From positions 149,501 to 213,500 of the forward strand of contig NZ_CP064048.1 of assembly GCF_020923495.1 (NCBI RefSeq): DNA of 64,000 nucleotides, in the 5' to 3' direction. This document shows positions 13,747 to 29,835 of the stretch, piece by piece. The notes under the pieces were generated by a model. That model did no database searches and had not been told where the DNA came from. It saw only the letters and a program-made list of their open reading frames with translations. The number at the start of each line of letters is the position of its first letter. Position 1 is the stretch's first letter. A program made the translations under genes and the position numbers. Origin of the DNA: Brevibacillus sedimenti (GTDB taxonomy: Bacteria > Bacillota > Bacilli > Brevibacillales > Brevibacillaceae).

Positions 13747-16476
13747 TTGGCTAAACACGATGCTTACAACGTGAAGTCTTCCCTGCAAGTGGGCGGCAAG
13801 ACGTACGCATACTACCGCCTGCAAGGCTTGGAAGAGCAAGGAATCGGCGAAGTTTCCAAGCTGCCGTTCTCCATTAAAGTGCTGCTGGAAGCGGCTGTGC
13901 GTCAGTTTGACGGCCGCGCCATCACCAAGGAACACGTGCAACAACTGGCCAACTGGACAAAAGGCCGCGACGAAAACAAGGAAGTTCCGCTCATGCCGGC
14001 CCGTATCGTTCTGCAAGACTTTACGGGTGTACCGGCCGTCGTCGACCTGGCAGCGATGCGCATTGCGATGAAGCGTGCCGGCGGCGATCCCAAACGGATC
14101 AATCCGCTCGTTCCGGTTGACCTGGTTATTGACCACTCCGTCATGGTTGACGACTTCGGCAACGACAAGGCGCTGGAAAACAACATGAAGCTGGAATTCG
14201 AACGCAACCAGGAGCGCTACCGCTTCCTGCGCTGGGCGCAAACTGCGTTTGACAACTTCCGCGCTGTTCCGCCGGCAACCGGTATCGTGCACCAGGTAAA
14301 CCTGGAGTACCTGGCAACAGTGGTGGCAACCCGCGAAGTAAACGGCGAACTGGTGGCCTTCCCGGACTCCCTCGTCGGCACCGACTCCCACACCACCATG
14401 ATCAACGGTCTGGGCGTGCTGGGCTGGGGTGTTGGCGGTATCGAGGCGGAAGCCGGCATGCTTGGCCAACCGCTCTACTTCGTCACTCCGGAAGTTGTCG
14501 GCTTCAAGCTGACCGGCACCCTGAAAGAAGGGGCAACCGCAACCGACCTGGCGCTGACTGTTACACAAATGCTGCGTAAAAAAGGCGTGGTCGGCAAATT
14601 CGTTGAGTTCTACGGCCCTGGCCTGTCCAACATTTCGCTGGCAGACCGCGCGACCGTTGCCAACATGGCACCTGAGTACGGTGCAACGATGGGCTTCTTC
14701 CCTGTCGACGCCGAAACGCTCAACTACCTGCGTCAAACCGGCCGCAGTGAAGAGCAAATCGCCCTGGTGGAAGCCTACACCAAAGCGCAAGGCCTGTTCC
14801 GCACCGACGACACGCCGGATCCGGTCTTCACCGAGACTCTGGAACTGGATCTGTCCACCGTCGTGCCCAGCCTGGCTGGTCCGAAGCGTCCGCAAGACCG
14901 CGTCGAACTGACCAACATGAAGGAATCCTTCAACAACAGCCTGCGCACGCCGATCGAGAAAGGCGGTTTCGGCCTCTCCGAAGAAAAGATCAAGGCAGAA
15001 GCAACTGTCACCTACCCGAACGGCGAGACGGCAACTCTGAAAACCGGTTCCGTCGTCATCGCAGCCATCACGTCCTGTACCAATACATCCAACCCGAGCG
15101 TAATGCTGGGCGCCGGTATCCTGGCGAAAAAAGCTGTGGAAAAAGGACTGAAAAAACCGCCGTTCGTAAAGAGCTCGCTGGCTCCGGGTTCCCGCGTCGT
15201 AACCCAGTACCTGATCGACGCCGGCCTGATGGATTCGCTCAACGCGATCGGTTTCAACGTGGTCGGTTACGGCTGCACCACCTGCATCGGTAACTCCGGT
15301 CCGCTGCCGGAAGAAACCAGCAAGGCAATCGCCGACAACGACCTGACCGTGGCAGCTGTTCTGTCCGGTAACCGCAACTTCGAAGGCCGCATCCACGCGC
15401 AGGTAAAAGCGAACTACCTCGCTTCCCCGCCGCTGGTTATCGCGTACGCCCTGGCCGGCACCGTGGACATCGACCTGACAAAAGATCCGATCGGCACTGG
15501 CAAAGACGGCCAGCCGGTTTACCTGAAAGACATTTGGCCGACGCCGCAAGAGCTGGCGGAAGCGATGAACAAGGCGATGAATCCGGAACTGTTCCGCGCC
15601 CAATACGCGAACGTGTTTACGCAAAACCAAGCGTGGAACGAAATCGACGCACCGAAGGGCGACCTGTACGAGTGGGATATAAACTCCACCTACATCCAGG
15701 AGCCGCCGTTCTTCAAAGACCTTACCGGCGATGTCGGTCACATCGAAGAGATCACCGGCGCACGCGCACTGGCTCTCTTGGGTGATTCCGTCACCACCGA
15801 CCACATCTCGCCGGCGGGCAACATCTCGCCGACCAGCCCGGCAGGTCTGTTCCTGCAGTCCAAAGGCGTGGAACGCAAAGATTTCAACTCCTACGGTGCT
15901 CGCCGCGGCAGCCACGACGTGATGATGCGCGGTACGTTTGCCAACATCCGCATCCGCAACCAAATCGCTCCGGGCACCGAAGGCGGCGTAACCAAGTACC
16001 TGCCGACCGGCGAAATCATGTCCATCTATGATGCATCCATGAAGTACCAGGCAGACGGCACGCCGCTGGTGGTACTGGCCGGCAAGGAGTACGGTACCGG
16101 TTCTTCCCGTGACTGGGCCGCAAAAGGTACGTTCCTGCTCGGCATCAAGGCGGTCATCGCAGAAAGCTTCGAGCGCATCCACCGCTCCAACCTGGTGGGC
16201 ATGGGCGTGCTCCCGCTGCAATTCGCCGACGGCCAAAGCTGGAAGTCGCTCAACATCGACGGTACGGAAACGTTTGACATCGTCGGTCTGAACGACAACG
16301 TACAGCCTGGCCAACGCCTGAAAGTGAAAGCAACCCGTCAGGATGGCAGCCAGTTCGAGTTCGACGTCATCGTCCGTCTCGACTCGATGGTGGATGTCGA
16401 CTACTACCGCAACGGCGGCATCCTGCAAACCGTCCTGCGTCAACTGCTGGACGAAGGCAAACCGGTAACGGCGTAA
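13747..16476 (+). CDS. acnA: Aconitate hydratase (CitB/AcnA)
   Basis: A 909-residue cytoplasmic aconitase, the same length as B. subtilis CitB. It isomerises citrate to isocitrate in the TCA cycle, and the apo form of the family can bind mRNA. The [4Fe-4S] ligands are visible as [10 protein letters not shown] (Cys about 443) and [10 protein letters not shown] (Cys about 509 and 512). [31 protein letters not shown] and [10 protein letters not shown] are the active-site blocks. The TTG start at 13747 was chosen for its spacing from AGGGAGG; the open frame extends upstream to 13633 without a ribosome site. It stands alone and ends at the hairpin that carries repeat copy A. Confidence 0.97.
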
Positions 16477-16501
16477 CCAATAACATTCCTTACAGCACCC
16501 G

Positions 16502-16540
16502 CATGAAACAGGCAAGCGAATGCTTGCCTGTTTTCATTTT
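16502..16540 (+). terminator. acnA terminator hairpin, gene-proximal copy (T1)
   Basis: ACAGGCAAGC and GCTTGCCTGT (16508-16531) form a 10-bp stem with loop GAAT. Flanking ATGAAA and TTTTCAT extend it. A second copy (one loop-side difference) lies at 20760-20782 on the far side of the island. Confidence 0.85.
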
Positions 16541-16725
16541 CAGCGTGTAGACAAAGTCCGTGGCGAATGGGTGATCGGGCTCTCTCGCTCTATTGAGGCC
16601 CATCATTCCATGCCATATACTTTTTCTCCACCTTCGGTTTATCAATGTGCAGGCCTTCCTGCCTGGAAACGATGGTAGATCGGTTGCTTTGGAACCTTCT
16701 TGATAAAAAGGCACATTGTCTTCAG
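16541..16725 (+). repeat. Terminator-nested element, copy A (internally deleted)
   Basis: It starts CAGCGTGTAGACAAAG and ends ATTGTCTTCAG, matching both ends of the 328-bp copies C and D in reverse. About 140 bases of the central cruciform are missing, between CTCTCGCTC and the CCATCATTCCATG block. It is in the same orientation as copy B. It is bounded by the acnA hairpin T1 on the left and a different hairpin T2 on the right. Confidence 0.8.
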
Positions 16726-16729
16726 CCCC

Positions 16730-16761
16730 AGGCACTTCTTCATGATGGAGTGCCTTTTTTT
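16730..16761 (+). terminator. Hairpin T2 with T-tract, right of copy A
   Basis: AGGCACT (16730-16736) pairs with AGTGCCT (16749-16755), followed by TTTTTT. Nearly the same hairpin is left of copy B at 20424-20446. Confidence 0.75.
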
Positions 16762-17046
16762 GTGCACAGCTGGACGGGGCAAAACAAAAAACGACCAAAT
16801 CAGCGGATTCGTACGTCAGCTGAGGGACGGCATTAGAAAGCCGGCACAACCCTCCGTTATTCTTATTCTCGGTAAATTTTTTCACATCCGGAGAGTTCAG
16901 CTCTTTCGCCAGCTTTTGAAAAATCCGTCATCACATAGGTTCTAGTGTTCTTAATCACATTCATTTAACAAAATACCTCTGTTTACAATTATTGGTTTTT
17001 AGGTGTGTATTTGAATTGATGTAAATTTTTAGAAGGAGGAAACTCT
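16762..17046 (+). promoter_or_regulatory. Upstream region of the metalloprotease gene
   Basis: Noticeably AT-richer than acnA from about 16950 on. A possible promoter is TTTACA (16982-16987), an 18-base spacer and TGTATT (17006-17011). A strong ribosome site AGAAGGAGG ends just before the 17047 start. No other gene is seen. Confidence 0.45.
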
Positions 17047-17365
17047 ATGTCGCGCAAAAGGGTTAAAGTTGCAGCTGGTCTATTTACGATTGTTGCTTCA
17101 CTCTCTTTCTTTACTACTAGTGCATTTGCAAACTTCCTAGGGGGGAAGTGGGAGATCTCAAACATTATTTATGAAAACATTAATTTAGAGAAAAAGTACT
17201 CTCGCGTTCTTTGGACTGCTGTTGATAAATGGAATGGAATTAGTAGTAGTTTTGATCTTTCACCTGCTGATTCGGATGAAACTGGTTATGTTGCTGTCAA
17301 CGCCGACTTTATTTTGACCCACCATCGCCGGTTTAGAATCGACCCACCCGGCGATTTTTTGTTGG

Positions 17366-18133
17366 TTAGGTGGTAGAGGGAGAGCCGTAGGCTCCAGTCC
17401 TCATCTTCTCACGAAGCCGGTAACTATTCCCCCTAATGTTGACGATGTGGGAATGGTGTAAGAGCCGATCCAGGATAGCCGTAGCAAGTATCGGATCACC
17501 CATCAGTTCCCCCCATTCACCGAAACTCTTGTTGCTGGTTAACAGAATACTCCCTCTCTCGTATCTTGCACTTATTACCTGGAAAAAGAGGTTGGCTGCC
17601 AAACTGTCAAACGGTAAGTAACCAATTTCGTCAATAATCAGGAGCTTTGGTCGAATATAGATGCGTAGGCGTTTATCCAGCCTGTTTTCCGTGTAAGCTT
17701 TTCGCAGATCTTCGATGAGTTGCGAGAGACTGACAAAGTAAACGGATATCCCTTGCGAGATGGCTTCTACAGCCAACGCCACCGCCAGATGACTTTTTCC
17801 TACTCCGGGAGGCCCTAAGAACAAGACATTCTCGTGTCGGGTTACAAAAGTCATCGTGGCCAGCTCTCGAATCAACCGTTCGTCAATGCTGGGTTGGAAA
17901 GCAAAATCGAACTCCTCTAGTGTTTTTCGGTAAGGCAAGTGTGCAAGTTTGGTGCGTACCTCCATATTCCGTTTTTGACGTTCCGCTATCTCGGCATCAA
18001 GGAGCGTGTTAAGAAAGGACAGATAGGTGGGCTGTCCATGACTTGCCGCTTCCAAGTGAGCATCCAAGAGGAGAGCTGCTTGCTGAAGCCCAAGTTCCTC
18101 GAGGCGTAGCCGTGCTTGTTCCAGTTCAATCAT
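17366..18133 (-). CDS. istB: IS21-family helper ATPase IstB
   Basis: A 255-residue AAA+ ATPase related to DnaC. It has Walker A GPPGVGKSHLA (about 106-116) and Walker B LLIIDEIGYLPF (about 167-178). IstB assembles on target DNA and stimulates the IstA transposase. Its start overlaps the istA stop by ATGA. Full length, no visible defect. Confidence 0.95.
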   Translation of the reverse strand: MIELEQARLRLEELGLQQAALLLDAHLEAASHGQPTYLSFLNTLLDAEIAERQKRNMEVRTKLAHLPYRKTLEEFDFAFQPSIDERLIRELATMTFVTRHENVLFLGPPGVGKSHLAVALAVEAISQGISVYFVSLSQLIEDLRKAYTENRLDKRLRIYIRPKLLIIDEIGYLPFDSLAANLFFQVISARYERGSILLTSNKSFGEWGELMGDPILATAILDRLLHHSHIVNIRGNSYRLREKMRTGAYGSPSTT

Positions 18134-19353
18134 GCTCCCACCCCTGTTAGCTGCTCATAGACATCCAGCGAACGTACTTCCACTTGCTGCGATGAAATCT
18201 GTCGGGCTTGCGGACGTGGATAGGCATATCCTTGAGCGGTCGAAAGACCTGCATACTGGTTTTCGCAAAAAACAGTTGTGCGGGATCGATAGACCTTTTG
18301 GTGTCGAGCAATACATGTGCCGTCGGCCCAGATTTCCACCCACCCATTCACTTCTCGAACGGTTACCTCACGTCCACTGTACCTCCATGGAACTCCATAT
18401 CGTACACCATCGTAGCTAACAAATCCGTCTCGGCTGACCTGTCTTGGTTCATGCAAGTATTTTTCCCACCGTTCAGCTGAAGGGATGGGCGACAGTTTTT
18501 CCTCACGGAGTCGGTCAAAGGGACGTTCGCCGGTTGTTCCATGAATACGGCGGTTAATCCGCTCGCACCAGTGTAGGGCTTGTTGATTGAGATCCTGTAA
18601 ATCAACGAAGCGTTTGCCAGGAAGAAAGTTGTTTTTTACGTATTGAACGCCTCGTTCCACTTTTCCCTTTGTTTCGGGGCGTCGAACTTTGCATACTTTT
18701 GGAACAAGCCCAATCGCTGCAGCAAAGTCGGCAAAAAGCGGATGCCAGCGAGGTTTTCGATCATCTTCCATGCCCAGTACGACGGTTTTCATCTGGTCGG
18801 TCAGCATTACCTTTGGGATGCCCCCAAAATATTCAAAAGCATGAATCAAGCAACGAAGAAAGCTGTGAATGTCACAACGCTTAGTGAACTCTATATAGGT
18901 GGAACGAGAGTACCCCAATACCATGACAAATACCGGCACTTTTCGGACTGTACCGTCCAAATCTACGTAATCACACAGTCCCCAGTCGACCTGTGCGTAT
19001 TCACCAGGTTTCGTCTCGTAACGAAGAACAGCGGGAACTTGTTTGGGAGGACGGAAGTCCTTCACATAGTCTTTCAAGATGGTACGTCCCCCGGTATACC
19101 CCTTTTCTCGTAGAAGATCGAATAAAACCTCGCAGTTATAGATACCTTCTTGAAGACGTTCCTGCAGGAACGGTTTATACGGATCAAGCTTGGAACCACG
19201 AGATTTACGGGTTCCCTTTTCGGGGGAGAATTCACCCCGGAGATATCGGCGAACTGTATTTCGAGAATGCCCCGTTAGACGGGCAATTTCACGAATACTC
19301 TTGCCTTCTGCCCTCATGGTATGTAACGATATCACTATCCCACTCCTTAGCAT
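18130..19353 (-). CDS. istA: IS21-family transposase IstA
   Basis: A 407-residue DDE transposase. An N-terminal helix-turn-helix (SIREIARLTGHSRNTVRRYL, about 18-37) precedes the RNase H-like integrase core (first Asp in QVDWGLCDY, second in LTDQMK, Glu in TKGKVERG). ATG 19353 has GGAGGGA upstream; the open frame reaches the IS end but has no better start. The element looks intact and could be active. Confidence 0.95.
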   Translation of the reverse strand: MLRSGIVISLHTMRAEGKSIREIARLTGHSRNTVRRYLRGEFSPEKGTRKSRGSKLDPYKPFLQERLQEGIYNCEVLFDLLREKGYTGGRTILKDYVKDFRPPKQVPAVLRYETKPGEYAQVDWGLCDYVDLDGTVRKVPVFVMVLGYSRSTYIEFTKRCDIHSFLRCLIHAFEYFGGIPKVMLTDQMKTVVLGMEDDRKPRWHPLFADFAAAIGLVPKVCKVRRPETKGKVERGVQYVKNNFLPGKRFVDLQDLNQQALHWCERINRRIHGTTGERPFDRLREEKLSPIPSAERWEKYLHEPRQVSRDGFVSYDGVRYGVPWRYSGREVTVREVNGWVEIWADGTCIARHQKVYRSRTTVFCENQYAGLSTAQGYAYPRPQARQISSQQVEVRSLDVYEQLTGVGA

Positions 19354-19818
19354 GTGTCTCCCTCCGAAGATTAACTTGGCCGTTAATACCGAAGGGGATA
19401 TATTCGCTAAGGGTGGGTCATTTTCTTTCCGGCGAACCTGGGTCAATTATATCCCGGCGGTGACAGTTGCAGTAAAACATCTACCTAGAGCAGAAGATAA
19501 TTATCTTGGCTGGAGTGGCACTTATGGTTACGCAATCCCCTATGATGACAGAGGAAGAGAGAACCGTTCTCCATATGCATCAGCCGATGTTGTTATTGTA
19601 CGATATTTATGTGACAAACTGGACGAGGATGACACTATTAACATGATTACCCATGAATTTGGTCATGTTCTTGGGCTTGCACATATAGATAGTAGAAAAA
19701 TTGATTCTATTATGGACTATGCAGACGTATTTGACTGGGATATAGACGGACCAACAAGTTACGACAAGAAAAATATTCGCGAACTCTACGGTCGATAATT
19801 TGAAAGGATGTGTTATCA

Positions 19819-20415
19819 GTGAAAAAAATGATAACGACTGTGACTGTAGCCGCAATGGTTGCAGGTGTTGGAGCGGGATTAGCCTATAAAGAACTGAACA
19901 GTGCAAGCAATCATAGTGTTGCATTGGCTAAAACATTCTCATCGATAGACGATATTGTGAAAGATGCTAAAGTAATCATAAAGGGTAAAGTACCCAAAGA
20001 ATATCGAAAAGAAGTTGTAGGTGAAATCGTTTTTCATGTTTATGATGTTCAGGTTATCAAGTTGTATAACAACCTCACCGATCAAGAGATTAAAGAAGGG
20101 GAAACTGTCGAGATGTACCGCCTCGTCGGTGTAGAAAGCAAGGATGGTAAAGATATGGCGAATATTGTTGCACCTAAATATCAATCCCTCCACGAAGGAG
20201 AATACCTCTTATTTCTTAACGGACAATTCGACGATAATCTAAATAAATTAATTCTTATACCCAACACGCCAAATCAGCTATTTAAAGCGGAAAAATCCAG
20301 TAGGTTGGCCTCCTGGAAATCAAATAACACTGAATTTGAAAATATCACAGAGGACGATGCTCTTCCTTCAATAAACGAGGCAGATCTATTGGATGCAATT
20401 GATTCACTAAAGTAA
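19819..20415 (+). CDS. Small exported protein of unknown function (EYLLFL domain)
   Basis: A 198-residue protein with an N-terminal signal or anchor segment (TTVTVAAMVAGVGAGLAY, about 5-22). The body has SSIDDIVKDAKVIIKGKV, a beta-rich stretch and HEGEYLLFLNGQ. The same arrangement occurs twice in the lipoprotein at 27201-28037, so the two share an unnamed domain. The GTG start at 19819 has GAAAGGA about 10 bases upstream; an in-frame GTG at 19810 is too close to it. It is AT-rich like the broken metalloprotease 20 bases upstream, with which it forms the island cargo. I do not know its function. Confidence 0.7.
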   Translation: MKKMITTVTVAAMVAGVGAGLAYKELNSASNHSVALAKTFSSIDDIVKDAKVIIKGKVPKEYRKEVVGEIVFHVYDVQVIKLYNNLTDQEIKEGETVEMYRLVGVESKDGKDMANIVAPKYQSLHEGEYLLFLNGQFDDNLNKLILIPNTPNQLFKAEKSSRLASWKSNNTEFENITEDDALPSINEADLLDAIDSLK

Positions 20416-20423
20416 TTCTTTCT

Positions 20424-20446
20424 AGGCACTTCTTCATGAAGTGCCT
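20424..20446 (+). terminator. Hairpin T2, gene-proximal copy without T-tract
   Basis: AGGCACTTC pairs with GAAGTGCCT (20424-20446). The next bases are TCAGCTTG, the start of repeat copy B, instead of a T-run, so termination here should be weak. Confidence 0.75.
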
Positions 20447-20447
20447 T

Positions 20448-20759
20448 CAGCTTGTAGTCAAAGTCCGTACATGGGTGATCTGACCCGCTCGCTCTCGTGA
20501 CGACCAGCAAAGAAGCTGGCAGGGTCCGCTTCAAAACGCGACGCGGGCAAGGGGAAACATCTGGGTAGTTCGACGAAGTGAGACTTGTGCCCCCTGTTTT
20601 TCCCCGCGTCTTTCGTTTTTCTGCTGAGCAGGTAGTCAAAGGAGCTCGCTTGGCCCATCACTCCATGTACGTTTTCTCCACCTTCGGTTTATCAATGTGC
20701 AGGTCTTTCCGACCGGAAACGGTTTCCAGGCAGAACTCAATGATTAAAAGTACAGTTTG
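20448..20759 (+). repeat. Terminator-nested element, copy B
   Basis: About 312 bp, a diverged full-length relative of copies C and D read in reverse. It starts CAGCTTGTAGTCAAAGTCCG, keeps both arms of the central stem-loops, and ends at CAGTTTG, about 11 bases short of the C/D terminus. It lies between hairpin T2 on the left and a second copy of the acnA hairpin T1 on the right. Confidence 0.8.
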
Positions 20760-20789
20760 ACAGGCAAGCGAATACTTGCCTGTTTTTTT
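20760..20789 (+). terminator. acnA-type hairpin T1, distal copy with T-tract
   Basis: Stem ACAGGCAAGC / CTTGCCTGT (20760-20782) followed by TTTTTTT. It differs from 16508-16531 near the loop (GAATA instead of GAATG). Confidence 0.85.
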
Positions 20790-20807
20790 AGAAAAAACCA
20801 TCCCATA

Positions 20808-20848
20808 TAAAAAACAGGCGTCTGTTTGCCTACAGACGCCTGTTTTTT
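20808..20848. terminator. Bidirectional terminator
   Basis: ACAGGCGTCTGT (20814-20825) pairs with ACAGACGCCTGT (20832-20843), with A-rich and T-rich flanks. It separates the island from the IclR gene. Confidence 0.8.
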
Positions 20849-20859
20849 CGGCAACAAAA

Positions 20860-20892
20860 AAGCTGCCGGACGTACCCGACAGCGCGCAGCTT
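20860..20892 (-). terminator. Terminator of the IclR gene
   Basis: AAGCTGC and GCAGCTT close a larger imperfect stem. On the minus strand it is followed by TTTTTTG. Confidence 0.65.
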
Positions 20893-20922
20893 CGTTTTGA
20901 ACATAATCGCTTTCGTCGTGTG

Positions 20923-21666
20923 CTATTTCATCATTTTGCCCATCCGGTACGCAGCCTCCATGATCGGACGGGCAAATTCGCGCATTTTTTCCGGCGTCAA
21001 CCGGTTGGATGGCCCGGACGCGGCAATGGCTGCCACCAATTTGCCGTTGCGGTTAAATATCGGGGCAGCTACGGCGGCGGCCCCCAATTCCCGTTCCTCC
21101 ACGCTGGTGGCAAACCCCTGCGCCCGAATCTGCTCCAACTGCTCCAGGTACGCCTCCCGATCGATCGAGTCCGGCCAGTTGGGATCGTTCAGCACAGCCT
21201 GGAGCACCTCCGGCTCGGCGTACGCCACCAGCACCTTGCTGGACGCGCCCACGAAAAGCGGCATGCGTGCTCCAATGGGCGCCACCCGGCGGATCGGCTG
21301 GTTGCTCTGCACCGCCTGGATGCGAATCCGCTCGTTGCCGTCCCGCACGTACAGACTGATGGTCTCGCCCACCAGGTCGCGCAAACGCTCCATCTCCGGC
21401 AGCAGAACGGTGGCAGGGTCATCCGAATGGGTCAAATTGGCCGAAAGCTCCCAGATCCGAAAGCCGAGCCGGTATTTCTCCGTCTGTGCGTCGCGGATCA
21501 GGAAGCCTTTGTTTTCCAGGGTCGCCAGCAGCCGATGCACCGTACTTTTATGCAGGGAAAGGCGGCTTGCGATCTCGCTGAGGCCCAGATCAGTCGAATC
21601 CGTGAAACAGAGCAGGATGTCCAGCGCACGCTCCACCGCCCGCACGTTCGTTTTTGCCTCTTCCAT
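20923..21666 (-). CDS. IclR-family transcriptional regulator
   Basis: A 247-residue regulator. The N-terminal winged helix has LSEIASRLSLHKSTVHRLLA (about 24-43), and the C-terminal effector domain follows from about 80. IclR proteins respond to small carboxylates or aromatic compounds and control catabolic operons. No catabolic operon is adjacent, so its targets are elsewhere or include the aldo/keto reductase gene, which is not shown. A palindrome TTTCACTAGATGAAA (21706-21720) about 40 bases upstream of the start is a candidate operator for autoregulation. The ribosome site is weak (GGGTGAG). Confidence 0.9.
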   Translation of the reverse strand: MEEAKTNVRAVERALDILLCFTDSTDLGLSEIASRLSLHKSTVHRLLATLENKGFLIRDAQTEKYRLGFRIWELSANLTHSDDPATVLLPEMERLRDLVGETISLYVRDGNERIRIQAVQSNQPIRRVAPIGARMPLFVGASSKVLVAYAEPEVLQAVLNDPNWPDSIDREAYLEQLEQIRAQGFATSVEERELGAAAVAAPIFNRNGKLVAAIAASGPSNRLTPEKMREFARPIMEAAYRMGKMMK

Positions 21667-21705
21667 CTGTTCTCACCCGCTTTCATGTTGGAATGTCACC
21701 GATCG

Positions 21706-21720
21706 TTTCACTAGATGAAA
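21706..21720 (-). promoter_or_regulatory. Candidate IclR operator
   Basis: Perfect inverted repeat TTTCA-CTAGA-TGAAA upstream of the iclR-type gene. Assigned by position and symmetry only. Confidence 0.45.
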
Positions 21721-21849
21721 TATGGTTCTACTCTTCAGTATAGAAAAAAGGCGGACACACGTAAAGCGAAAAAAAGCGCCGTTCCAGGTAGTAAAACGAT
21801 GGACGGCCGCATCGTTCCTGCAGGGGACCCGCCATACTGCCCCCAACAG

Positions 21850-21880
21850 CAAAAGGCAGCCGCCTTGAAAGCGGCTGCCT
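21850..21880 (-). terminator. Aldo/keto reductase terminator, distal copy with T-tract
   Basis: GGCAGCCGC pairs with GCGGCTGCC (21854-21880), followed on the minus strand by TTTTGCTG. The same 27 bases recur at 22209-22235. Confidence 0.85.
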
Positions 21881-22208
21881 CAGACTGAAGACAAACGGTT
21901 CATTGAATAAGTGTCCATAAGAAAATGATTTCCAGGCCGGAAGGCCTGCCCATTCATCAACCGAAGCGGAAGACAATGTGCATCGCATGGAGGGATGGGC
22001 CAAGCGAGCTCCTTTGACGACCGACTCAGCGGAAAAACGAAGACGCGGGGACCAACAGGGGACACAAGTCTCACTTCATCGAAACACCCAGATGTTTGTC
22101 CCCTGCCCGCGTCTCGTTTTGGAGCGGACTTCATCCGCTTCTGTGCTGGACGTCAAGCGAGCGAGCGGGCCCGATCTCCCATGCGCCGCGAACTTTGTCT
22201 ACACGCTG
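21881..22208 (-). repeat. Terminator-nested element, copy C (328 bp)
   Basis: Complete copy, given minus-strand orientation to match the upstream gene. The ends CAGACTGAAGACAAA and (reverse complement) CAGCGTGTAGACAAA match at 12 of 15 positions. It is flanked by a perfect 27-bp repeat consisting of the local terminator hairpin. By eye about 15 of 328 bases differ from copy D. It can fold into a long two-armed structure. The plus-strand reading frames across it are not credible genes. Confidence 0.9.
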
Positions 22209-22235
22209 AGGCAGCCGCCTTGAAAGCGGCTGCCT
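22209..22235 (-). terminator. Aldo/keto reductase terminator, gene-proximal copy without T-tract
   Basis: Identical 27-base hairpin to 21854-21880. On the minus strand it runs straight into CAGCGTGTAGAC of the element, so it has lost its T-run. Confidence 0.85.
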
Positions 22236-22271
22236 GTGTATGTCCATCGGTACGGGAATGTCTGGCGCTTG

Positions 22272-23099
22272 TTAGAAATCGAAATTGTCGGGGTCGGGAC
22301 CGAACCGCTTGTTTTGGTTCAGCGCGCTGATCCGCTCCATGTCTTCGCTGCTCAGCGTAAAATCGAATACGTCCGCGTTTTGACGGATGCGCTCCGGCGT
22401 GACCGATTTCGGGATGATAACCACGCCGTTTTGCAAATGCCAGCGCAGGACGACCTGTGCGGGCGTCTTGCTGTACTTCTCACTCAGTTCTGTCAGCAGC
22501 GGCAGGTCCAGATTGCCTTTCATCAACGGGCTCCACGCTTCCAGCTGGATGCCGTTTTCCTTGCAGTATGCGCGCAGTTCCCGCTGGGTCAGAAGCGGAT
22601 GGCACTCCACCTGGTTTACGGCCGGCACGATCTCGCTCACCTTGCGCAGCTCCTCCAGATGGTGCACCTGGAAGTTGCTTACGCCGATCGCCCGCACGTA
22701 TCCTTCACGATAGAGCTTCTCCAACGCCTTCCACGTCTCCAAATACTTTTCCTTGACCGGCCAGTGCACCAGATAAAGATCGAGGTATTCCAGGCGGAGC
22801 TTTTTCATGCTCTCGTTAAACGCCTTCAATGTCGTCTCGTACCCCTGATCAGCATTCCACACCTTGGTCGTGATGAACAGCTGATCGCGGGCGATGCCAC
22901 TGTCCTTGATCGCTGTGCCGACGCCGGTCTCGTTTTCGTAGATGGCCGCCGTGTCAATGCTGCGGTAGCCCACTTCGATGGCGGTGCGAACCGCCCGCTG
23001 CACTTCTTCCCCTTCTTTTGCCTTGTAGACGCCCAGACCCAGCCACGGCATGCTGACTCCGTTGTTCAATACAGTGCTGTCTCCGATATGCGTTGCCAT
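22272..23099 (-). CDS. Aldo/keto reductase (AKR5-like, YvgN type)
   Basis: A 275-residue NADPH-dependent carbonyl reductase with a TIM-barrel fold. The catalytic tetrad is visible as Asp49, Tyr54, Lys79 (ITTKVW) and His112 (LVHWP). The cofactor loop IPKSVTPERIRQN (about 231-243) is typical. YvgN-like members reduce methylglyoxal and other aldehydes. ATG 23099 has GGAGG 7-8 bases upstream; the frame extends upstream without a better site. It ends at a hairpin duplicated around repeat copy C. Confidence 0.93.
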   Translation of the reverse strand: MATHIGDSTVLNNGVSMPWLGLGVYKAKEGEEVQRAVRTAIEVGYRSIDTAAIYENETGVGTAIKDSGIARDQLFITTKVWNADQGYETTLKAFNESMKKLRLEYLDLYLVHWPVKEKYLETWKALEKLYREGYVRAIGVSNFQVHHLEELRKVSEIVPAVNQVECHPLLTQRELRAYCKENGIQLEAWSPLMKGNLDLPLLTELSEKYSKTPAQVVLRWHLQNGVVIIPKSVTPERIRQNADVFDFTLSSEDMERISALNQNKRFGPDPDNFDF

Positions 23100-23236
23100 T
23101 TGGATCTCCTCCCGTCTTTTCCAATATGTATAAGCGTATATAGTGTAACACAACCATACTTCCAAAAAAAGGCGGTAACTGTTTGGAATCCGCTTTATCC
23201 GGAGATGGGCGACCTCACCGGATGCCTTCTCTTTCA

Positions 23237-23884
23237 TCAGTACAACCGCTTTGTATAGCTCTCCTGCAGCGCTTCCTCCACTTGCTTGCCGGTAGTAATC
23301 CCTGGGGCGTTCATGTTAATGTGGTCGGCCAGCACCTGGGCCATGGCCGGCAGCTGCTCCCTGTCCAGCCACGCTTCCGGCTGCCAGAGGCCAGAGCGCT
23401 TGAACGCCTTGGCACAGTGGACGAAGCACTCCTCCACCCGCACCCCGATGCCAACGGCCGGCACTTTGCCATTTACCGCCATCCGGCTCAGAATGTCGGC
23501 GTCCCGGATGACGCAGGCCCGGCCGTTGACGCGCAGCGTCTCTTCCAGACCGGGGATGAGAAAGATCACCCCTACCCGGGGATTGGACAGGATGTTGCGC
23601 ATCGAGTCCATCCGCCGGTTGCCGGGTCGTTCGGGAATGACCAGGTGAAAGTCATCCAGCACGTGCACAAAGCCCGGCCCGTCCCCGCGCGGCGAGGCGT
23701 CGCAGTTTCCGGCGGCGTCTGCCGTGGCCAGCACGAGAAACGGCGATTTGGCAATAAACGCACGGCAGTGCCCGTCCAGGCGGTCAATCGCCTTGCGCCG
23801 GACCAGTTCCCTCGGTTCGCCCAACAGTTCACGCAGCTCCGCCTCGGCGGTCACCACGTCCTTAAAGATCGTCTTGTTATCCAT
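23237..23884 (-). CDS. Pyridoxamine 5'-phosphate oxidase-like flavoprotein
   Basis: A 215-residue split-barrel FMN protein of the MSMEG_1061 type. Visible blocks are SPFLVLATADAAGNCDASPRG (start about 47), VIPERPGNRRMDSMRNIL (about 83-100) and GVIFLIPG. Members bind FMN or F420; true PNP oxidase activity is not implied. ATG 23884 has GAGGT upstream. The gene ends about 137 bases before the aldo/keto reductase start and is on the same strand, but they need not be cotranscribed. Confidence 0.85.
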   Translation of the reverse strand: MDNKTIFKDVVTAEAELRELLGEPRELVRRKAIDRLDGHCRAFIAKSPFLVLATADAAGNCDASPRGDGPGFVHVLDDFHLVIPERPGNRRMDSMRNILSNPRVGVIFLIPGLEETLRVNGRACVIRDADILSRMAVNGKVPAVGIGVRVEECFVHCAKAFKRSGLWQPEAWLDREQLPAMAQVLADHINMNAPGITTGKQVEEALQESYTKRLY

Positions 23885-24056
23885 CCTGTACACCTCCAGC
23901 TCAACTTTTCCATGCTGCTTTCGACTACCACACAAAATCGTCCAACGTTTGCGTCAATGACACGTGGGACATGGGACGCGAAATCCCCCGCACATCACGC
24001 TGCTCATCACGCGAAGCGGGTATCGGAGTCTGCCGGTCTGGGACAGGCTGTCATGG

Positions 24057-25037
24057 CTATCCCCTGACTTCCAGCAATACTTTCCCTGTGCTTTGTCTGC
24101 TCTCCACCCACTCGTGGGCTTTGGCCGCTTCTTCCAGCGGAAACCGCCTCCCGATCCTGATGCGCAGACGCCCGTCGGCCAGAAGGCGAAACACCTGCTC
24201 CGCCGTATCATGCAAGAGATGGGGACGCATTTTCCGGGTCGTGCCGAAGCTGAATCCGAGCACGGAGCGGCAGCTTGCGTGCAAGTCTTTTGTCGCAAAC
24301 GTCCCGACGGCCCCGCCTGCATTTCCGAAGTGAACCAGCCTGCCGTACGGAGCGAGGCAGGTCATGCTTTTTTCCGAGACCCATCCGGAAATCGAATCCA
24401 GGATGACATTGGCCCCTTCCCCGTTTGTGAGCTGGTTTACCTTTTCCGCAAAGTCTTCCCGCTCGTAGCAGATGACGTGATCCGCACCGGCTTCCAGAGC
24501 GGCCGCCGCTTTTGCCTCGCTGCCGACCGTCCCGATGACGAGGCCAGCGCCCAGAATTTTGGCCAACTGGATCGCCGTCGTGCCAATGCCGCCTGCCGCG
24601 GCATGGATCAGGACCGTTTCGCCCGGTTCCAGTCTGGCCACATCGGCGAGCAGTTTGTAGGATGTGAAGGAAACGACCGGACAGGCCGCTGCCGTATCCA
24701 CATCCACCTCGTCGGGGAGTGCAAAGGTGAGCTGTTCGTCCGCGACCGCATACTCCGCGTACGATCCGTGCTGCGGAAACGCAATCACGCGCTGGCCCAC
24801 CTTGACACGCTTTACGTCGGCCCCCACCCGCTCGACAATTCCGACCGCATCCAGGCCGGGAATGAACGGGAGCGTGCCTGTCCCCTTTTTCCCGTACCTC
24901 GATTTAATATCAGCAAAATTTACGCTGGTTTTTTCGACACGAATTAATACTTGTCCAGAATGGATCTCCGGCAATTCCACGTCCGTGTAGATCATCGTTT
25001 CCGGTCCGCCAAACTGCGTGACCACGATCGCTTTCAT
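24057..25037 (-). CDS. Zinc-free NADPH:quinone oxidoreductase (QOR)
   Basis: A 326-residue medium-chain dehydrogenase/reductase without the catalytic zinc cysteines. The GroES-like N-terminal half is followed by a Rossmann domain with HAAAGGIGTTAIQLAK (about 144-159). The family reduces quinones or enones with NADPH. It is transcribed toward the PPOX gene; the divergent promoter region of LysR and EamA lies further upstream. Confidence 0.92.
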   Translation of the reverse strand: MKAIVVTQFGGPETMIYTDVELPEIHSGQVLIRVEKTSVNFADIKSRYGKKGTGTLPFIPGLDAVGIVERVGADVKRVKVGQRVIAFPQHGSYAEYAVADEQLTFALPDEVDVDTAAACPVVSFTSYKLLADVARLEPGETVLIHAAAGGIGTTAIQLAKILGAGLVIGTVGSEAKAAAALEAGADHVICYEREDFAEKVNQLTNGEGANVILDSISGWVSEKSMTCLAPYGRLVHFGNAGGAVGTFATKDLHASCRSVLGFSFGTTRKMRPHLLHDTAEQVFRLLADGRLRIRIGRRFPLEEAAKAHEWVESRQSTGKVLLEVRG

Positions 25038-25105
25038 CCCTTCATTCCCCCCACCGGCCGTTTTTCTATTTATTTCTTCAGGGCTTCCATGTTCGTTTCG
25101 TCCAG

Positions 25106-26011
25106 TCAGCTGCGGGCAGCTGCTTCCGGCTGGGACGTACCCGTGCCCCCTTCGTCACGAAACTGGCGAATGGTCTCAAGCAGTTTCCGCATCGAACTGG
25201 ACAAAATCGCGTCGCGTCGGCGAATGAACACCGTGGAGACGCGGCCAAACTCGTGCGGAATGGAATGACAGCGGATGCGTCCCGCCTCCTCCAGGTGAGC
25301 AACAGCTGCCCTAGGCACGAGCGAGACCCCCAATCCGGAGGCGGCCATGGCCAAAATCGTCTCCAGCGTGCCAAACTCCATGATCCGCGACGGTGTAATC
25401 CCTTCCGCCGCGAGCCACTGCACCAGCCGGGCCCGATAGCCGCAGCCGGAGCGAAACACGAGCAGCGGTCTGGATTTGCATTCGTCAAGTGTATGGGAAG
25501 CACCGTCGCCGCTCGCGATCAGGACCAGCTCTTCTTCCGTCAACAGCTCCTGGGCAATCTCCGGATGCTCGATCGGTCCGCTGACAAACGCGCCGTCCAA
25601 CTCATAGGCCAGCACATCGTTCACCAGGTGTTCCGTCACCCCGGTTACCAGCGACAGATCGACGCGCGGATACCGACCGCAGTAGACAGACAGGATCGCC
25701 GGCAAGCCGGAGACCGTCTCGACAGAGCCGATCAACAGCGGGCCGGACGGATTCTCCTCGTCCTGAAACGCCTTTTCCATCTCGTCCATCATCGCCAAAA
25801 TCTTCTGCGCGTAAGAAAGCAGCTTTCTGCCCTCGGGATTCAGCGTCACCCCTCGCGAATGCCGGTAAAACAAGGGCGTTCCCAGCTTTCGCTCCATATG
25901 CTGAATGCGCGCCGTCACGTTGGACTGCACGTAATTAAGCGCCCGGGCCGCCCGGCTGACGCTGCCGTGTTGAGCGACGGTTTGAAAAATGCGCAGATCA
26001 CTCAGTTCCAC
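25106..26011 (-). CDS. LysR-family regulator
   Basis: A 301-residue regulator. The N-terminal winged helix (about 1-60) includes SVSRAARALNYVQSNVTARI, and the effector-binding domain starts near 90. GTG 26011 was chosen because GGGGAGG lies 6-7 bases upstream; an ATG at 26041 lacks a site. It is divergent from the EamA transporter gene with about 112 bases between starts, the same arrangement as B. subtilis yvbU/yvbV, so it probably controls that transporter. Confidence 0.92.
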   Translation of the reverse strand: MELSDLRIFQTVAQHGSVSRAARALNYVQSNVTARIQHMERKLGTPLFYRHSRGVTLNPEGRKLLSYAQKILAMMDEMEKAFQDEENPSGPLLIGSVETVSGLPAILSVYCGRYPRVDLSLVTGVTEHLVNDVLAYELDGAFVSGPIEHPEIAQELLTEEELVLIASGDGASHTLDECKSRPLLVFRSGCGYRARLVQWLAAEGITPSRIMEFGTLETILAMAASGLGVSLVPRAAVAHLEEAGRIRCHSIPHEFGRVSTVFIRRRDAILSSSMRKLLETIRQFRDEGGTGTSQPEAAARS

Positions 26012-26123
26012 GCCGCTCCTCCCCCTTCCTCTCTCTTCCATCTGATATCAATCATAATGATGAGTACAATCATTTTCAATCGTTTTACATGATAAAAATT
26101 CCGGAATATGATGGAGATCGTGA

Positions 26124-27116
26124 ATGAGTCAAAGCAATGGAAAGGCAGGCAATCACAGCAACATGAATACCAACCACATTCTCAAAGGGGCATTTTTGTG
26201 CCTGATCGCGAGCGTCGCATGGGGGGCAATGTTTCCCGTGGCCGAAAGCGCGTTTGCTCATCTCGATCCGTTTTTCTTTTCCGTCATCCGCTACTCCGCC
26301 GTCTCCGTCATCCTGTTGGTCCTCTTGTGGCTGAAGGAAGGCGGGCGGGCGCTTTGCTTTGACGGCCGCGGCGCATCGCTCTGGTTTTTCGGCACGATGG
26401 CGTTTACCGTCTACAACCTGTTAATCTTTTGGGGCCAAAACCGATTGGGCACGTCGGGCGTGATTCTCGCTTCGGTGATGGAAGCGCTGATGCCGATGAT
26501 TTCGGTGCTGGTGCTGTGGATCTGGAGCCGGAAGCGGCCGGCGCCGTTTACTGTCGGCTGCATCGCGGTGGCCTTGGTCGGCTGCTTTCTGGTGATTACC
26601 AAAGGGGATTTGCACGCATTTCTCCTGGGAACCGACCGGCTGTTTCCGGTTCTCGTGATTTTTGTCGGCGTCCTGGGCTGGGTCATCTACACGATTGGCG
26701 GCAATGTTTTCGCCGAGTGGTCCGTACTCCGCTACTCCACACTGAGCTGCGTGCTGGGCACCGCCACTTCGCTTGCAATCGTTCTCGTGCTGTCTGCTTT
26801 CGGCATGTTGTCCGTCCCTGCGCTGCCGTCGATCTGGTCGGCCGGCCCCGAGCTTGGCTTCATGATCCTGGTCGCCGGCGTGCTGGCACTGGTCAGTTGG
26901 AATGCGGGCGTGAAGCTGTTGACGCCAATCAACGGCATCCTGTTTATCAACTTCGTGCCCGTCACCACCTTTGTCATCTCCGTGATGCAGGGGTACCGCC
27001 TCACCCTGTTTGATGTGGGGGGAACGCTCCTGATCATCGCGGCGCTGATCGCCAACAACCTTTATCAGCGCAGACAGCTCAAGCTGTCCGCCGCGGCCGC
27101 CCGCGCAACCTCATAA
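26124..27116 (+). CDS. EamA/DMT-family transporter
   Basis: A 330-residue membrane protein with ten predicted helices arranged as two EamA repeats (about 20-150 and 170-315). The drug/metabolite transporter family usually exports amino acids or other small metabolites. The start ATG 26124 has TGGAG about 9 bases upstream; ATG at residue 14 is an alternative. The divergent LysR gene is the likely regulator. Confidence 0.9.
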   Translation: MSQSNGKAGNHSNMNTNHILKGAFLCLIASVAWGAMFPVAESAFAHLDPFFFSVIRYSAVSVILLVLLWLKEGGRALCFDGRGASLWFFGTMAFTVYNLLIFWGQNRLGTSGVILASVMEALMPMISVLVLWIWSRKRPAPFTVGCIAVALVGCFLVITKGDLHAFLLGTDRLFPVLVIFVGVLGWVIYTIGGNVFAEWSVLRYSTLSCVLGTATSLAIVLVLSAFGMLSVPALPSIWSAGPELGFMILVAGVLALVSWNAGVKLLTPINGILFINFVPVTTFVISVMQGYRLTLFDVGGTLLIIAALIANNLYQRRQLKLSAAAARATS

Positions 27117-27165
27117 AAAATCGTTCGCTGCATTGGGCAGCACCATCCTCGTCCGTGCAGCAAAA

Positions 27166-27194
27166 AAGACCACCTGACGTCAAGGTGGTCTTTT
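27166..27194. terminator. Bidirectional terminator
   Basis: AAGACCACC pairs with GGTGGTCTT with A-runs on the left and T-runs on the right. It serves the convergent EamA and lipoprotein genes. Confidence 0.85.
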
Positions 27195-27200
27195 CAATAC

Positions 27201-28037
27201 CTATTTGTTGATGCTGTTCAATACATCGTTCCATTGTGATTCATGGTCTTTGGAGATGACACTTCCCTGTCTAGTCGTCAGCCGGAAATCCTTTTCTCCC
27301 TTCAAGAACACCAGGTATTCCTTGCCTACCTCCACATCAGCCGGCAAATTGATGATGGCACTGTCCTGATCGAGCTCTCCTTTGTACGCTTGCAAAATGT
27401 CTGCCGTAACGGTCTTTACATACTCGTTTTCATGCACGACTTCCACAGGCATGACATGAAGCACAAAATCGGACTGATCTATCAATTCTTCCGTACTGCT
27501 CGCCTTCTCTACGATGTGAACGTTCTTTTTCGTCAGCCGCTTTGCCTCCGGAGAATTTTGAATGTAGGTCACCATGTCGTCTTTCTTTCTGTTCATCACA
27601 ATGTTTTCATTGCCACGTAATTGATTCTTGTCGATTTCAATGATCGTCTCCTCTCCGATCGGCGTATAGACAGGCCGGGGATACAGCTCATGTTCCCAGT
27701 ATTCCAGAAACAACAAATACTCTTTCCCTTTTTTCAACGCATCTTTCGCTTCATACACATCAATTGACTTCGCGTTTACATTCCCTTTCAATTCCGTTTT
27801 CACAGCGACAGTGTATCGGTAGGTGTTGGTGCTGCTGAATTTCGCTTCATCCACTACTTCGCCAATCACGACATGGTCAGAAGCCTTTACGGCATCGTCT
27901 ACGTTTGTTATTGCTGTCACGGTTTCTCCTTCCCTGCTGGTAATGTGCAAAGAAGCATCACGATGATCCGGCGTGCAACCCGTGATTACAAGCAGGGACA
28001 GGGTGGCCATTGTGAAAACTTTCTTCAGCTGTTTCAC
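27201..28037 (-). CDS. Lipoprotein with two EYLLFL-type repeats
   Basis: A 278-residue lipoprotein: signal peptide with lipobox VITGC (Cys about 20). Two related segments follow. The first includes VDDAVKASDHVVIGEV and GKEYLLFLEY; the second includes STEELIDQSDFVLHV and GKEYLVFLKG. The same pattern occurs once in the island protein at 19819. GTG 28037 has GGAGG 8 bases upstream; the open frame to 28145 has no site. The function is unknown; surface attachment is inferred from the lipobox. Confidence 0.75.
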   Translation of the reverse strand: MKQLKKVFTMATLSLLVITGCTPDHRDASLHITSREGETVTAITNVDDAVKASDHVVIGEVVDEAKFSSTNTYRYTVAVKTELKGNVNAKSIDVYEAKDALKKGKEYLLFLEYWEHELYPRPVYTPIGEETIIEIDKNQLRGNENIVMNRKKDDMVTYIQNSPEAKRLTKKNVHIVEKASSTEELIDQSDFVLHVMPVEVVHENEYVKTVTADILQAYKGELDQDSAIINLPADVEVGKEYLVFLKGEKDFRLTTRQGSVISKDHESQWNDVLNSINK

Positions 28038-28135
28038 AATAAAATCCTCCAATCTTGATAGGATTATGTGATCGCGCCCGCCACTCGTGCTCATGCGGCG
28101 GCGTTTACCGCACACGTGCGGCTGAAAAACACGAA

Positions 28136-28173
28136 ACGGAAGCAAGTCCCCTATCTGGGGCCGCTTCCGTTTT
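28136..28173 (-). terminator. Terminator of the signal peptidase gene
   Basis: ACGGAAGC (28136-28143) pairs with GCTTCCGT (28163-28170) around an inner CCCC/GGGG stem. T-runs exist on both strands, so it may act in both directions. Confidence 0.65.
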
Positions 28174-28244
28174 CGTCGTTCGCTTCTCCATGACCATCGA
28201 ATGCAGCAGTGCGGCCGCTTGTCAATCCGCCTTCAAATCCGCCT

Positions 28245-28802
28245 TCAGAACGGCCATTCCAATTTGGTGCCAATCACGTGGTCGAGCGGAATAAAGCCGA
28301 TGTCCCGACTGTCCCGGCTGTTGTTGCGGTTGTCCCCCATCACGAAGATGTGGTTGTCGGGCACGACGACTTTTTCCAAGCCGTCGTACTGGGCTGTCTC
28401 CTTGATGTACGGTTCGTCCAGCGGCTTGCCGTTGCGGTACACCTGGTGATTCTTAAATTCCAGGACGTCGCCCGGTTTGCCGATTACGCGCTTGACGTAC
28501 ATGAAATCTTCCTTTTGATTGCCCAGCATCAGGTGAATCAACGGATGGTTCATCAGGTCATCCCGGATTGTGCGCTCTCGGTTTACACGGCTGTCGATCA
28601 CGACGATGTCGCCGTAATCTGGCAGGTACGAAAAGGTGTGGGAGAGTTTGGACACGTAGATCCTCTGCTGATCATGCAGCGTCGGGTCCATGGAGTGGCC
28701 TTCCACCTTGAACGGTTGGAAAACGAAGACGCCCAGAACCAGCGCCAGCAATGCCGCGAAGACGATGGAACTAATCCAATCCCAAATCTCTTTGAGCTTC
28801 AC
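28245..28802 (-). CDS. sipS: Signal peptidase I
   Basis: A 185-residue membrane serine protease that removes Sec and Tat signal peptides. It has one N-terminal transmembrane helix (about 10-29), the catalytic serine in GHSMDPTL (Ser37), the general-base lysine in YVKRVIGKPGD (Lys104) and the box GDNRNNSRDSR (Ser near 160). The size and single helix are typical of Bacillus-type (P-type) enzymes. GTG 28802 was chosen: the transmembrane helix follows directly and AGGCGGG is upstream. Which paralogue it is (sipS, T, U, V) cannot be said. Confidence 0.95.
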   Translation of the reverse strand: MKLKEIWDWISSIVFAALLALVLGVFVFQPFKVEGHSMDPTLHDQQRIYVSKLSHTFSYLPDYGDIVVIDSRVNRERTIRDDLMNHPLIHLMLGNQKEDFMYVKRVIGKPGDVLEFKNHQVYRNGKPLDEPYIKETAQYDGLEKVVVPDNHIFVMGDNRNNSRDSRDIGFIPLDHVIGTKLEWPF

Positions 28803-28940
28803 AAGCAGCCCGCCTTTCGTACAAGTTTGTCTACCACGTATGATAGCACAAACTCGGCTGCAAATTAACCGGGCCAGCTCGCTCCCCCTCTCTCCTTCAC
28901 GGCAGCCCGCGAAATCCCCGTGAATTTCCCCGGACAACCG

Positions 28941-29336: not shown

Positions 29337-29452
29337 GTGCGTACCTCCGTTTCTTTTCGTGATATTTTTCAGAATAAAACGACAATGGGTGTTTCAGCAA
29401 GATCTGTCTGTCTGTTTGTGCACACTCACGACCTGGCTGTCCCCGCAAGCGT

Positions 29453-29482
29453 AAAAAAGGCCTTGCTCAATCGGCAAGACCT
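29453..29482 (-). terminator. sftA terminator, distal copy with T-tract
   Basis: On the minus strand GGTCTTGC pairs with GCAAGGCC, followed by TTTTTTACGC. The 25 bases 29458-29482 recur at 29811-29835 with one difference. Confidence 0.85.
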
Positions 29483-29810
29483 CAGACTGAAGACAAACGG
29501 TTCATTGTATAAGCGTCCATAAGAAAATGATTTCCAGGCCGAAAGGCCTGACCATTCATCAACCGAAACTGTAGACAACGTACATCGCATGGAGAGATGG
29601 GCCAAGCGAGCTCCTTTGACGACCGGCTCAGCGGAAAAACGATGACGCGGGGACCAACAGGGGACACAAGTCTCACTTCATCGAAACACCCAGATGTTTG
29701 TCCCCTGCCCGCGTCGCGTTTTGGAGCGGACTTCATCCGCTTCTGTGCTGGGCGTCAAGCGAGCGAGCGGGCCCGATCTCCCATGCGCCGCGAACATTGT
29801 CTACACGCTG
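29483..29810 (-). repeat. Terminator-nested element, copy D (328 bp)
   Basis: Complete copy, same length as copy C. An outer palindrome pairs about 29571-29618 (starting GTAGACAA) with about 29754-29804 (ending TTGTCTAC). Inside it GACGCGGG pairs with CCCGCGTC and AGGGGACA with TGTCCCCT (about 29644-29716); a separate small hairpin with CAGGCC/GGCCTG is at 29535-29550. The flanks are the duplicated sftA terminator hairpin. Confidence 0.9.
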
Positions 29811-29835
29811 AGGCCTTGCCCAATCGGCAAGACCT
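29811..29835 (-). terminator. sftA terminator, gene-proximal copy without T-tract
   Basis: Same hairpin as 29458-29482 with C for T in the loop-proximal part. On the minus strand it runs directly into the element end CAGCGTG. Confidence 0.85.

Follow-up and report, generated by a model that had tools for sequence, protein, structure and literature searches.

A probable IS1182-family MITE between two copies of a terminator hairpin in Brevibacillus sedimenti, and its structured interior

Introduction

Among the closest described systems to the element reported here are IS1272 and TnSha1, staphylococcal members of the IS1182 family whose targets are stem-loops, often those of terminators, without a consensus sequence (PMC5678879, PMC4923244). 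In the available parts of these two papers, hairpin and terminator targeting by TnSha1/IS1272 is accompanied by deletion (PMC4923244), and three possible insertion pathways are drawn in which duplication of a whole hairpin is hypothetical, IS1272 itself removing the hairpin (PMC5678879). Siguier et al. are cited for palindromic targets in the IS1182 family (PMC4923244, available part), and palindrome targeting by this family is already known. Another comparable group is formed by bacterial MITEs and stem-loop repeat families, which, from the available parts of the articles, are short, multi-copy and equipped with terminal inverted repeats or stem-loops (PMC10969869, PMC2267715).

The element described here, element C, shares hairpin targeting with IS1272 / TnSha1, but it keeps and doubles the hairpin, whereas IS1272 removes the stem-loop and leaves no duplication. 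It resembles the bacterial MITEs and stem-loop repeats in general build, and differs from them by its structured duplication of 18-42 bp and by a rod-shaped interior common to elements with other ends. In the literature searched (available parts of the articles, with the reviews of Siguier et al. known via PMC5678879 and PMC4923244), no description was found of whole-hairpin duplication, IS1182 MITEs, element C or the rod. Element C very probably adds a new MITE to a known family, with a target habit recorded here for dozens of insertions; its covarying interior was less expected.

Element C and its duplicated hairpin

The window, i.e., the whole 64-kb stretch of DNA analyzed here, contains two identical 27-bp stem-loops (21854-21880 and 22209-22235, AGGCAGCCGCCTTGAAAGCGGCTGCCT), and the segment between them, 21881-22208, is exactly 328 bp long. 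They are the sole identical 27-mers of the window spaced by 100-1000 bp. The ends of this segment, CAGACTGAAGACAAA and TTTGTCTACACGCTG, form inverted repeats matching at 12 out of 15 positions. In both respects, the perfect 27-bp duplication around 328 bp and the imperfect 15-bp ends, an earlier note made from the letters of this DNA is confirmed. The target hairpin sits just beyond the stop codon of an aldo/keto reductase gene. Short (328 bp), multi-copy, and bounded by terminal inverted repeats and a target-site duplication, element C has the features of a MITE. The coordinates are collected in Table 1.

Group IIC introns are retroelements that also insert at terminator hairpins, beside the stem, and to our knowledge without duplicating the hairpin. 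Element C has terminator-hairpin insertion in common with them, but differs by duplicating the hairpin. Identity with such an intron was rejected, no Rfam intron matching the element in the searches of window positions 16000-30500 and of 18 related loci.

Table 1. Features of element C, its target and the other copies in the window (positions in the window; a point stands for no strand)
Feature	Position	Strand	Basis
Left target-site duplication, whole 27-bp stem-loop	21854..21880	.	same as 22209-22235; single in the G022 empty site
Element C, probable non-autonomous IS1182-type MITE, 328 bp	21881..22208	.	nhmmer borders; 43 copies analyzed in the own genome
Terminal inverted repeat CAGACTGAAGACAAA, corresponding to the IS1182 right end	21881..21895	+	13/15 matches with the right end of the G061 IS (1532 bp); 14/15 with the own remnant
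Small hairpin CAGGCC-TTCC-GGCCTG, following the rod on the presumed sense strand	21933..21948	-	terminator-like by position only
Rod-shaped imperfect hairpin, candidate structured RNA	21986..22183	- (probable sense strand)	fold, consensus structure
Apical motif of the rod, a conserved loop on a covarying closing helix	22053..22108	-	model R1, covariation counts
Terminal inverted repeat CAGCGTGTAGACAAA, corresponding to the IS1182 left end	22194..22208	-	15/15 to the left end of the G061 IS
Right target-site duplication, aldo/keto reductase side	22209..22235	.	same as left copy
Aldo/keto reductase gene, its terminator hairpin being the target	22272..23099	-	Pfam PF00248, E 1.3e-63
Copy D	29483..29810	.	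sequence comparison, nhmmer
Copy D, left hairpin duplication	29458..29482	.	single in G022
Copy D, right hairpin duplication	29811..29835	.	sequence
Copy B, degenerate	20448..20763	-	nhmmer
Copy A, internally deleted (16541-16602 and about 16597-16726)	16541..16729	-	nhmmer

Copies in the window and in the genome

The own genome consists of one contig of 3.93 Mb. A DNA search, in which 40 of 114 first-look candidates were scored, gave 45 rows, 43 of them copies of the element; the other two, where the hairpin matches itself, were excluded. The 43 copies include tandem or near-identical sets (L009-L011, L028-L029 and L143-L144). Higher numbers come from the ends: CAGNNTGNAGACAA, with one mismatch allowed, occurs 285 times in the genome versus 54 for the reversed pattern, which would fit a copy number on the order of 115. 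The model of the apical motif, described below, matches 59 times, and from sequence counts of this kind the copy number may be taken as roughly 60-115.

A strict, flush direct repeat of 18-38 bp borders 27 of the 43 copies, and none of 1796 mismatched pairs of left and right flanks used as a control, which is beyond chance. All 27 repeats can be read as stem-loops, some with mismatches, and they vary between sites except within tandem arrays. The window offers an example: as the earlier note had it, the hairpin of copy D differs from that of element C. Its own two copies (29458-29482 and 29811-29835) have one mismatch in 25. That note took the hairpin to be local and not part of the element. 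The second half stands, the hairpin being different at each site; the first needs amending because hairpins are the class of target rather than a local peculiarity. Its central proposal, that the stem-loop is the target-site duplication of a small non-autonomous mobile element, is borne out by these 27 copies, by the control and by the empty sites presented below.

The duplication is not universal. Among the 37 intact-ended copies (at most three mismatches at each end), 10 have no strict duplication. By eye, a degraded duplicate is kept in four of these (L002, L008, L029 and L150), L149 displays two mutually inverted hairpins, and no duplication is recognizable in L021, L026, L143, L144 and L148. 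Copies without duplicated flanks had been named in advance as a case against the target-site reading; they exist, and these five of 37 speak against it in part. These five copies, the dead transposase and the structured interior are absent from the earlier reading.

Two tandem element-hairpin-element arrays are found, at 656315-657347 and 891135-891832; in locus coordinates, the array of three units is L158 2014-3047 and that of two units L157 3134-3831. The copies of the triplet are 99.4-99.7% identical, which suggests that it arose by local amplification and not by three separate insertions. In the pair array, one member is slightly nearer to a copy elsewhere in the genome.

Empty sites in a related genome

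Such arrays show that hairpin-element units can multiply, and this bears on a rival account of the doubled hairpin: the element would have inserted beside a single hairpin, the second one having pre-existed in tandem or been carried in. The hairpins vary by site and the element is constant, which speaks against this account, and orthologous sites lacking the element allow a direct comparison. G022 belongs to the same genus, with 92.9% identity over the longest block aligned here. There, the C site has no element and only one hairpin, and the alignments of the two flanks overlap by exactly 27 bp. The same single-hairpin state is observed at 15 further sites, and two hairpins without an element are seen at none of the 16 clean orthologous sites of G022. 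Insertion beside a hairpin is refuted for these 16, and in general we consider it highly improbable. The earlier note had foreseen one hairpin at an empty site and had singled out empty sites with two as the opposing case; the former was found throughout and the latter nowhere among the 16.

The comparison covered 30 sites: 28 of the 43 copies plus the window sites L001 and L005. For eight (L003, L010, L012, L014, L015, L022, L028 and L030) none of the G022 loci compared has both flanks; of the remaining 22, 16 are clean. The overlap equals the length of the duplication within 1 bp at 13 of the 16, and the other three (L008, L149 and L150), whose own duplication is not strict, were judged by eye; the overlaps involve an extrapolation of at most 2 bp, except for 15 bp in L149. 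The sites that are not clean comprise L002 and L007 (one hairpin, diverged flank), L006, L013 and L153 (flanks not contiguous), and L155, where an element end is present in G022 too.

To note, the loop of the C hairpin (21864-21870) is inverted between the two genomes, CTTGAAA in the own genome and TTTCAAG in G022. In L149 the two hairpins are mutually inverted. As a signature of insertion, loop inversion was discarded and has no place in the explanation, since the rest of the 16 clean sites do not show it.

G031 belongs to a different genus. There, a hairpin unlike that of element C follows the apparent reductase orthologue and carries a separate copy of the element with the hairpin on both sides (L141 2345-2650). 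The terminator of the same gene has thus seemingly been hit twice.

The retention of the hairpin also separates element C from stem-loop replacement without duplication, as practised by IS1272, which likewise targets hairpins and terminators (PMC5678879 and PMC4923244, available parts). In the own copies the hairpin is retained and doubled, whereas IS1272 deletes it. An IS1272-type replacement was rejected, the hairpin being neither removed nor left unduplicated, and such an element has next to no probability here.

Relation to the IS1182 family

Of IS1182-type transposases, the own genome yielded a single trace, a frameshifted C-terminal fragment (C1:1369199-1369554); no intact IS1182 transposase and no DUF772 match were found in this genome. 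About 110 bp downstream of this dead fragment lies TTTGTCTTCAATCTG, followed directly by a hairpin, and one end of element C matches this remnant at 14 of 15 positions. With 60 residues of the remnant as a query, matches were obtained in 9 of the 39 genomes of the bacterial family. Intact relatives of 1532-1546 bp are present in G061 and G032. Their left ends read either CAGCGTGTAGACAAA, which the element shares at one of its ends, or CAGCCTGTAGACAAA; their right ends are close to the other end of the element; for the G061 IS, the agreement with element C is 15/15 on the left and 13/15 on the right. The CAGCGTGTAGACAAA end with its next two bases matches an IS of G032 at 17 of 17 positions (L193), and the CAGACTG end is found at 15/15 in L220, L225, L228, L283, L285 and L286. 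The latter matches are short (BLAST E 0.03-0.3), and it is their position at the ends that carries the argument. Elsewhere the element and the IS loci searched share little: similarity is limited to the terminal 15-19 bases, the one exception being a weak 35-base match in L224 (77%, E 0.32).

The transposases of the relatives with these ends score 467.3 and 478.5 bits against the NCBIfam IS1182 model NF033551 (cut-off 270) and carry DUF772 and DDE_Tnp_1_6. Element C differs from such autonomous members by having no transposase gene, and shares both terminal repeats with the family. The IS copies also share the habit of doubling hairpins: hairpin repeats surround three of four IS copies in G061 and six of the nine shown in G032, the exceptions being L064, with a repeat of only about 8 bp and no hairpin, and L079 and L083, with none. 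By eye, a second IS1182-type group of G032 (ends GAGGGTGTCCC) has no flanking hairpins; not every IS1182 element, therefore, shares this habit.

A wider sample was drawn from named genomes, the best 80 of 535 IS1182 loci; one Bacillus and one Neobacillus genome contribute 12 loci each. With the wider end window, 64 of these 80 loci proved to have a duplication (37 with a narrower one), its length being 19-42 bp with a median of 26, and 0 of 1332 mismatched flank pairs among the 37 narrow-scan loci gave a repeat. In 61 of the 64 duplications, at least six outer positions pair from the first and last base inward, one mismatch being allowed; among 20,000 random segments of similar length, only 0.3% do so. 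Both ends without a repeat are observed at 10 of the 80 loci, and an end is missing at six. Contig ends or Ns truncate part of these 16, but L258 and L267 are complete at both ends and have two different flanks.

Duplication of the whole hairpin is the rule among these related IS1182 loci (64 of the best 80 of 535) and is shared by the MITE (27 of 43 copies). The earlier note had called hairpin-sized duplications unusual: this may hold for transposons at large, but not for the IS1182 loci sampled. Its suggestion of IS1182 as a possible parent has gained intact transposons in relatives, with matching ends and whole-hairpin duplications. We regard it as very probable, from sequence comparison, that element C is an IS1182-family MITE, whose 15-bp ends are recognized by a trans-acting IS1182-type DDE transposase and which is inserted into a terminator stem-loop. 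A separate observation made by eye concerns L065 (251-300), where the left end of an autonomous IS1182 and the adjoining inner sequence can form a terminator-like hairpin followed by a T-run.

Target choice and insertion

The duplication covers the whole hairpin at any length, 18-38 bp for the MITE and 19-42 bp for the IS (best 80 of 535 loci). The borders of the repeat are the feet of the stem to within a few A.T pairs; typically they lie one to three A.T pairs outside the first G/C pair, beside an A-/T-tract. Among the 64 IS duplications of the best 80 of 535 loci, the first base is A in 60, the last is T in 57, and an A-/T-tract lies outside in 60; for the 27 MITE duplications the corresponding counts are 23, 17 and 22. 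The tracts around the IS duplications resemble those of intrinsic terminators. Pairing could continue beyond the duplication in 52 of the 64 IS cases, so the position of the cut does not just mark where pairing stops.

These base preferences raise the question of how the target is read. It might be recognized as duplex sequence (A-tract, G+C-rich core, T-tract) and opened by a variable, wide staggered cut, with no extruded hairpin involved, as the nearly constant first A and last T of the IS duplications and their flanking A/T tracts would fit. Yet the repeats range from 18 to 42 bp, and 61 of the 64 IS cases (best 80 of 535 loci) start and end at mutually pairing positions, a coincidence at varying length that a cut guided by sequence only leaves unexplained. 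Recognition as duplex is, in our view, unlikely.

Recognition of the folded hairpin could proceed as follows. An IS1182-type DDE transposase, acting in trans, would recognize the 15-bp ends of the element, an intrinsic-terminator stem-loop being the site of insertion. The attack would occur at the two 5' feet of a hairpin pair, extruded or single-stranded, together with gap repair, a route that would correspond to "pathway b" of the model in the available part of PMC5678879. One full hairpin and the original U-tract would then remain beyond the element, so that the host gene would keep its terminator and the insertion would be mild, which in turn could allow roughly 60-115 copies. Since the transposase is dead in the own genome, mobility today would need a transposase from outside.

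In the literature consulted, including the available part of PMC5678879, hairpin duplication by a transposase appears only as a hypothetical pathway. The dozens of insertions and the empty sites constitute a natural data set for a structure-guided, hairpin-duplicating DDE transposase, and the intact IS1182 elements make cruciform cutting by the transposase testable in vivo.

The structured interior

The whole element folds better than its shuffles on both strands (z -6.8 and -5.2). Conservation is uneven along it: positions 121-140 are identical in all 37 aligned own copies, and at 21-40 the commonest letter averages 77%. The consensus rod, built from 36 of 50 reference copies (own genome and G031), comprises 55 pairs, only four of which have changes on both sides; most are invariant or nearly so, and the covariation term is small. 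The CAGGCC-TTCC-GGCCTG hairpin that follows the rod is present in most of the 37 copies inspected, some with a mismatch, as judged by eye.

The apical motif has a stem with strong covariation. Its loop, ACATCTGGGT...GTGAGACT on the minus strand, is found again in G031, G033 and G115, where the helices that close it differ. For covariation counts, 20 of 74 windows were used, the own copies (one-base shift), the G033 copies with an extra hairpin and some others (thinning) being excluded. In these 20 chosen sequences, 88.8% of the cells pair and 36 two-sided changes are counted, each value being reached by 0 of 500 shuffles; seven pairs have a two-sided change (reached by 29 of 500) and 10 further pair types occur (93 of 500). 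The 67 matches fitted to the model give 94.6% pairing and 129 cells changed on both sides (0 of 500), with the number of pairs having a two-sided change and that of further pair types reached by 24 and 11 of 500 shuffles, respectively, in an alignment biased towards the structure.

A 57-nt covariance model detects the motif (E <= 1e-4), usually in multiple copies, in at least 16 genomes out of 398 from the class; 14 candidates per genome were scored in the rows of this survey, making the counts lower bounds. At E <= 0.001, matches number 59 in the own genome (G000), 53 in G031, 30 in G033, 20 in G115, 44 in G217, 41 in G207 and one in G022. The own apical loop is one base longer: the exact pattern gave no match in the own genome, and the covariance model did. 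The exact motif occurs in none of the viral contigs searched. In G115, the motif lies within elements bearing other inverted ends (GAGATGCTAAGAATCAAATC...), followed in five of the six copies inspected by a GACC-GGTC hairpin. The G033 copies have, by eye, arms with a sequence of their own. In some G033 rods (L298, L302, L304, L306 and L308), the apical motif is immediately preceded by an additional small hairpin, for instance CCCCCGATGAGAGGGG.

The Rfam search of window positions 16000-30500 at E <= 1 yielded no match in element C or D; AaHKsRNA41 (20756-20848, beside copy B) and drz-agam-2-2 (19649-19777) are far below their gathering scores and were rejected. Nothing convincing falls on the motif in 18 related loci, where cspA covers a neighboring gene and five weaker matches were set aside too; MIR8562 (L308 1209-1467) overlaps one rod end, again far below the gathering score. 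The same holds for another search, of 20 loci: the riboswitches detected (c-di-AMP, two SAM and TPP) lie elsewhere and belong to neighbors, and two weak matches, one of them BSnc120 in L334 overlapping a rod arm, were ascribed to neighbors or chance. In window positions 16000-30500 and the related loci searched, the interior is thus assigned to no known Rfam family.

The rod may be an RNA, a DNA structure serving transposition, or both. In the own copies, a neighboring ORF lies only on the rod-sense side in 14 of 37, only on the other side in four, and on both in 19 (binomial p 0.03, with a crude ORF rule). This 14 versus 4 tendency, the conservation of the apical motif across genera with a covarying helix, and its presence inside other-ended elements in G115 argue for the structured interior, as a functional RNA, being the unit of selection, with the IS1182-type ends as one of several vehicles. 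Against this reading, most rod pairs never vary among own and G031 copies; the orientation count depends on that crude rule, 19 of the 37 copies being uninformative, and common ancestry among MITE interiors could account for some of the spread of the motif. Selection on the interior is a possibility to be taken seriously, although we do not favor it. A fuller scenario is put forward tentatively and with some doubt: the interior would represent a family of mobile noncoding RNAs of Bacilli, rod-shaped and absent from Rfam, spreading on transposase ends that differ between lineages; here, an IS1182-type end would bring it, more often in sense, into terminators, doubling the hairpin, so that the RNA joins host 3' ends without loss of the terminator. 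With its many copies per genome, the covarying rod qualifies as a candidate for a new structured RNA.

Copies A and B and other repeats in the window

Copies A and B (16510-20785) have the same orientation and exchanged hairpins, H1-A-H2 ... H2-B-H1, where H1 is AGGCAAGCGAATRCTTGCCT and H2 is AGGCACTTCTTCATGA...GTGCCTT. G022 has a single H1 and is devoid of the roughly 3.7-kb segment between the two copies, which therefore looks captured by cointegrate formation or recombination at the elements. Inside this segment, a repeat of roughly 2.17 kb (17295-19466), which overlaps the end of the ORF 17047-17376 and has seven near-complete matches in G022, is probably an insertion sequence. Finally, the stretches 1-522 and 49356-49876 of the window are identical repeats.
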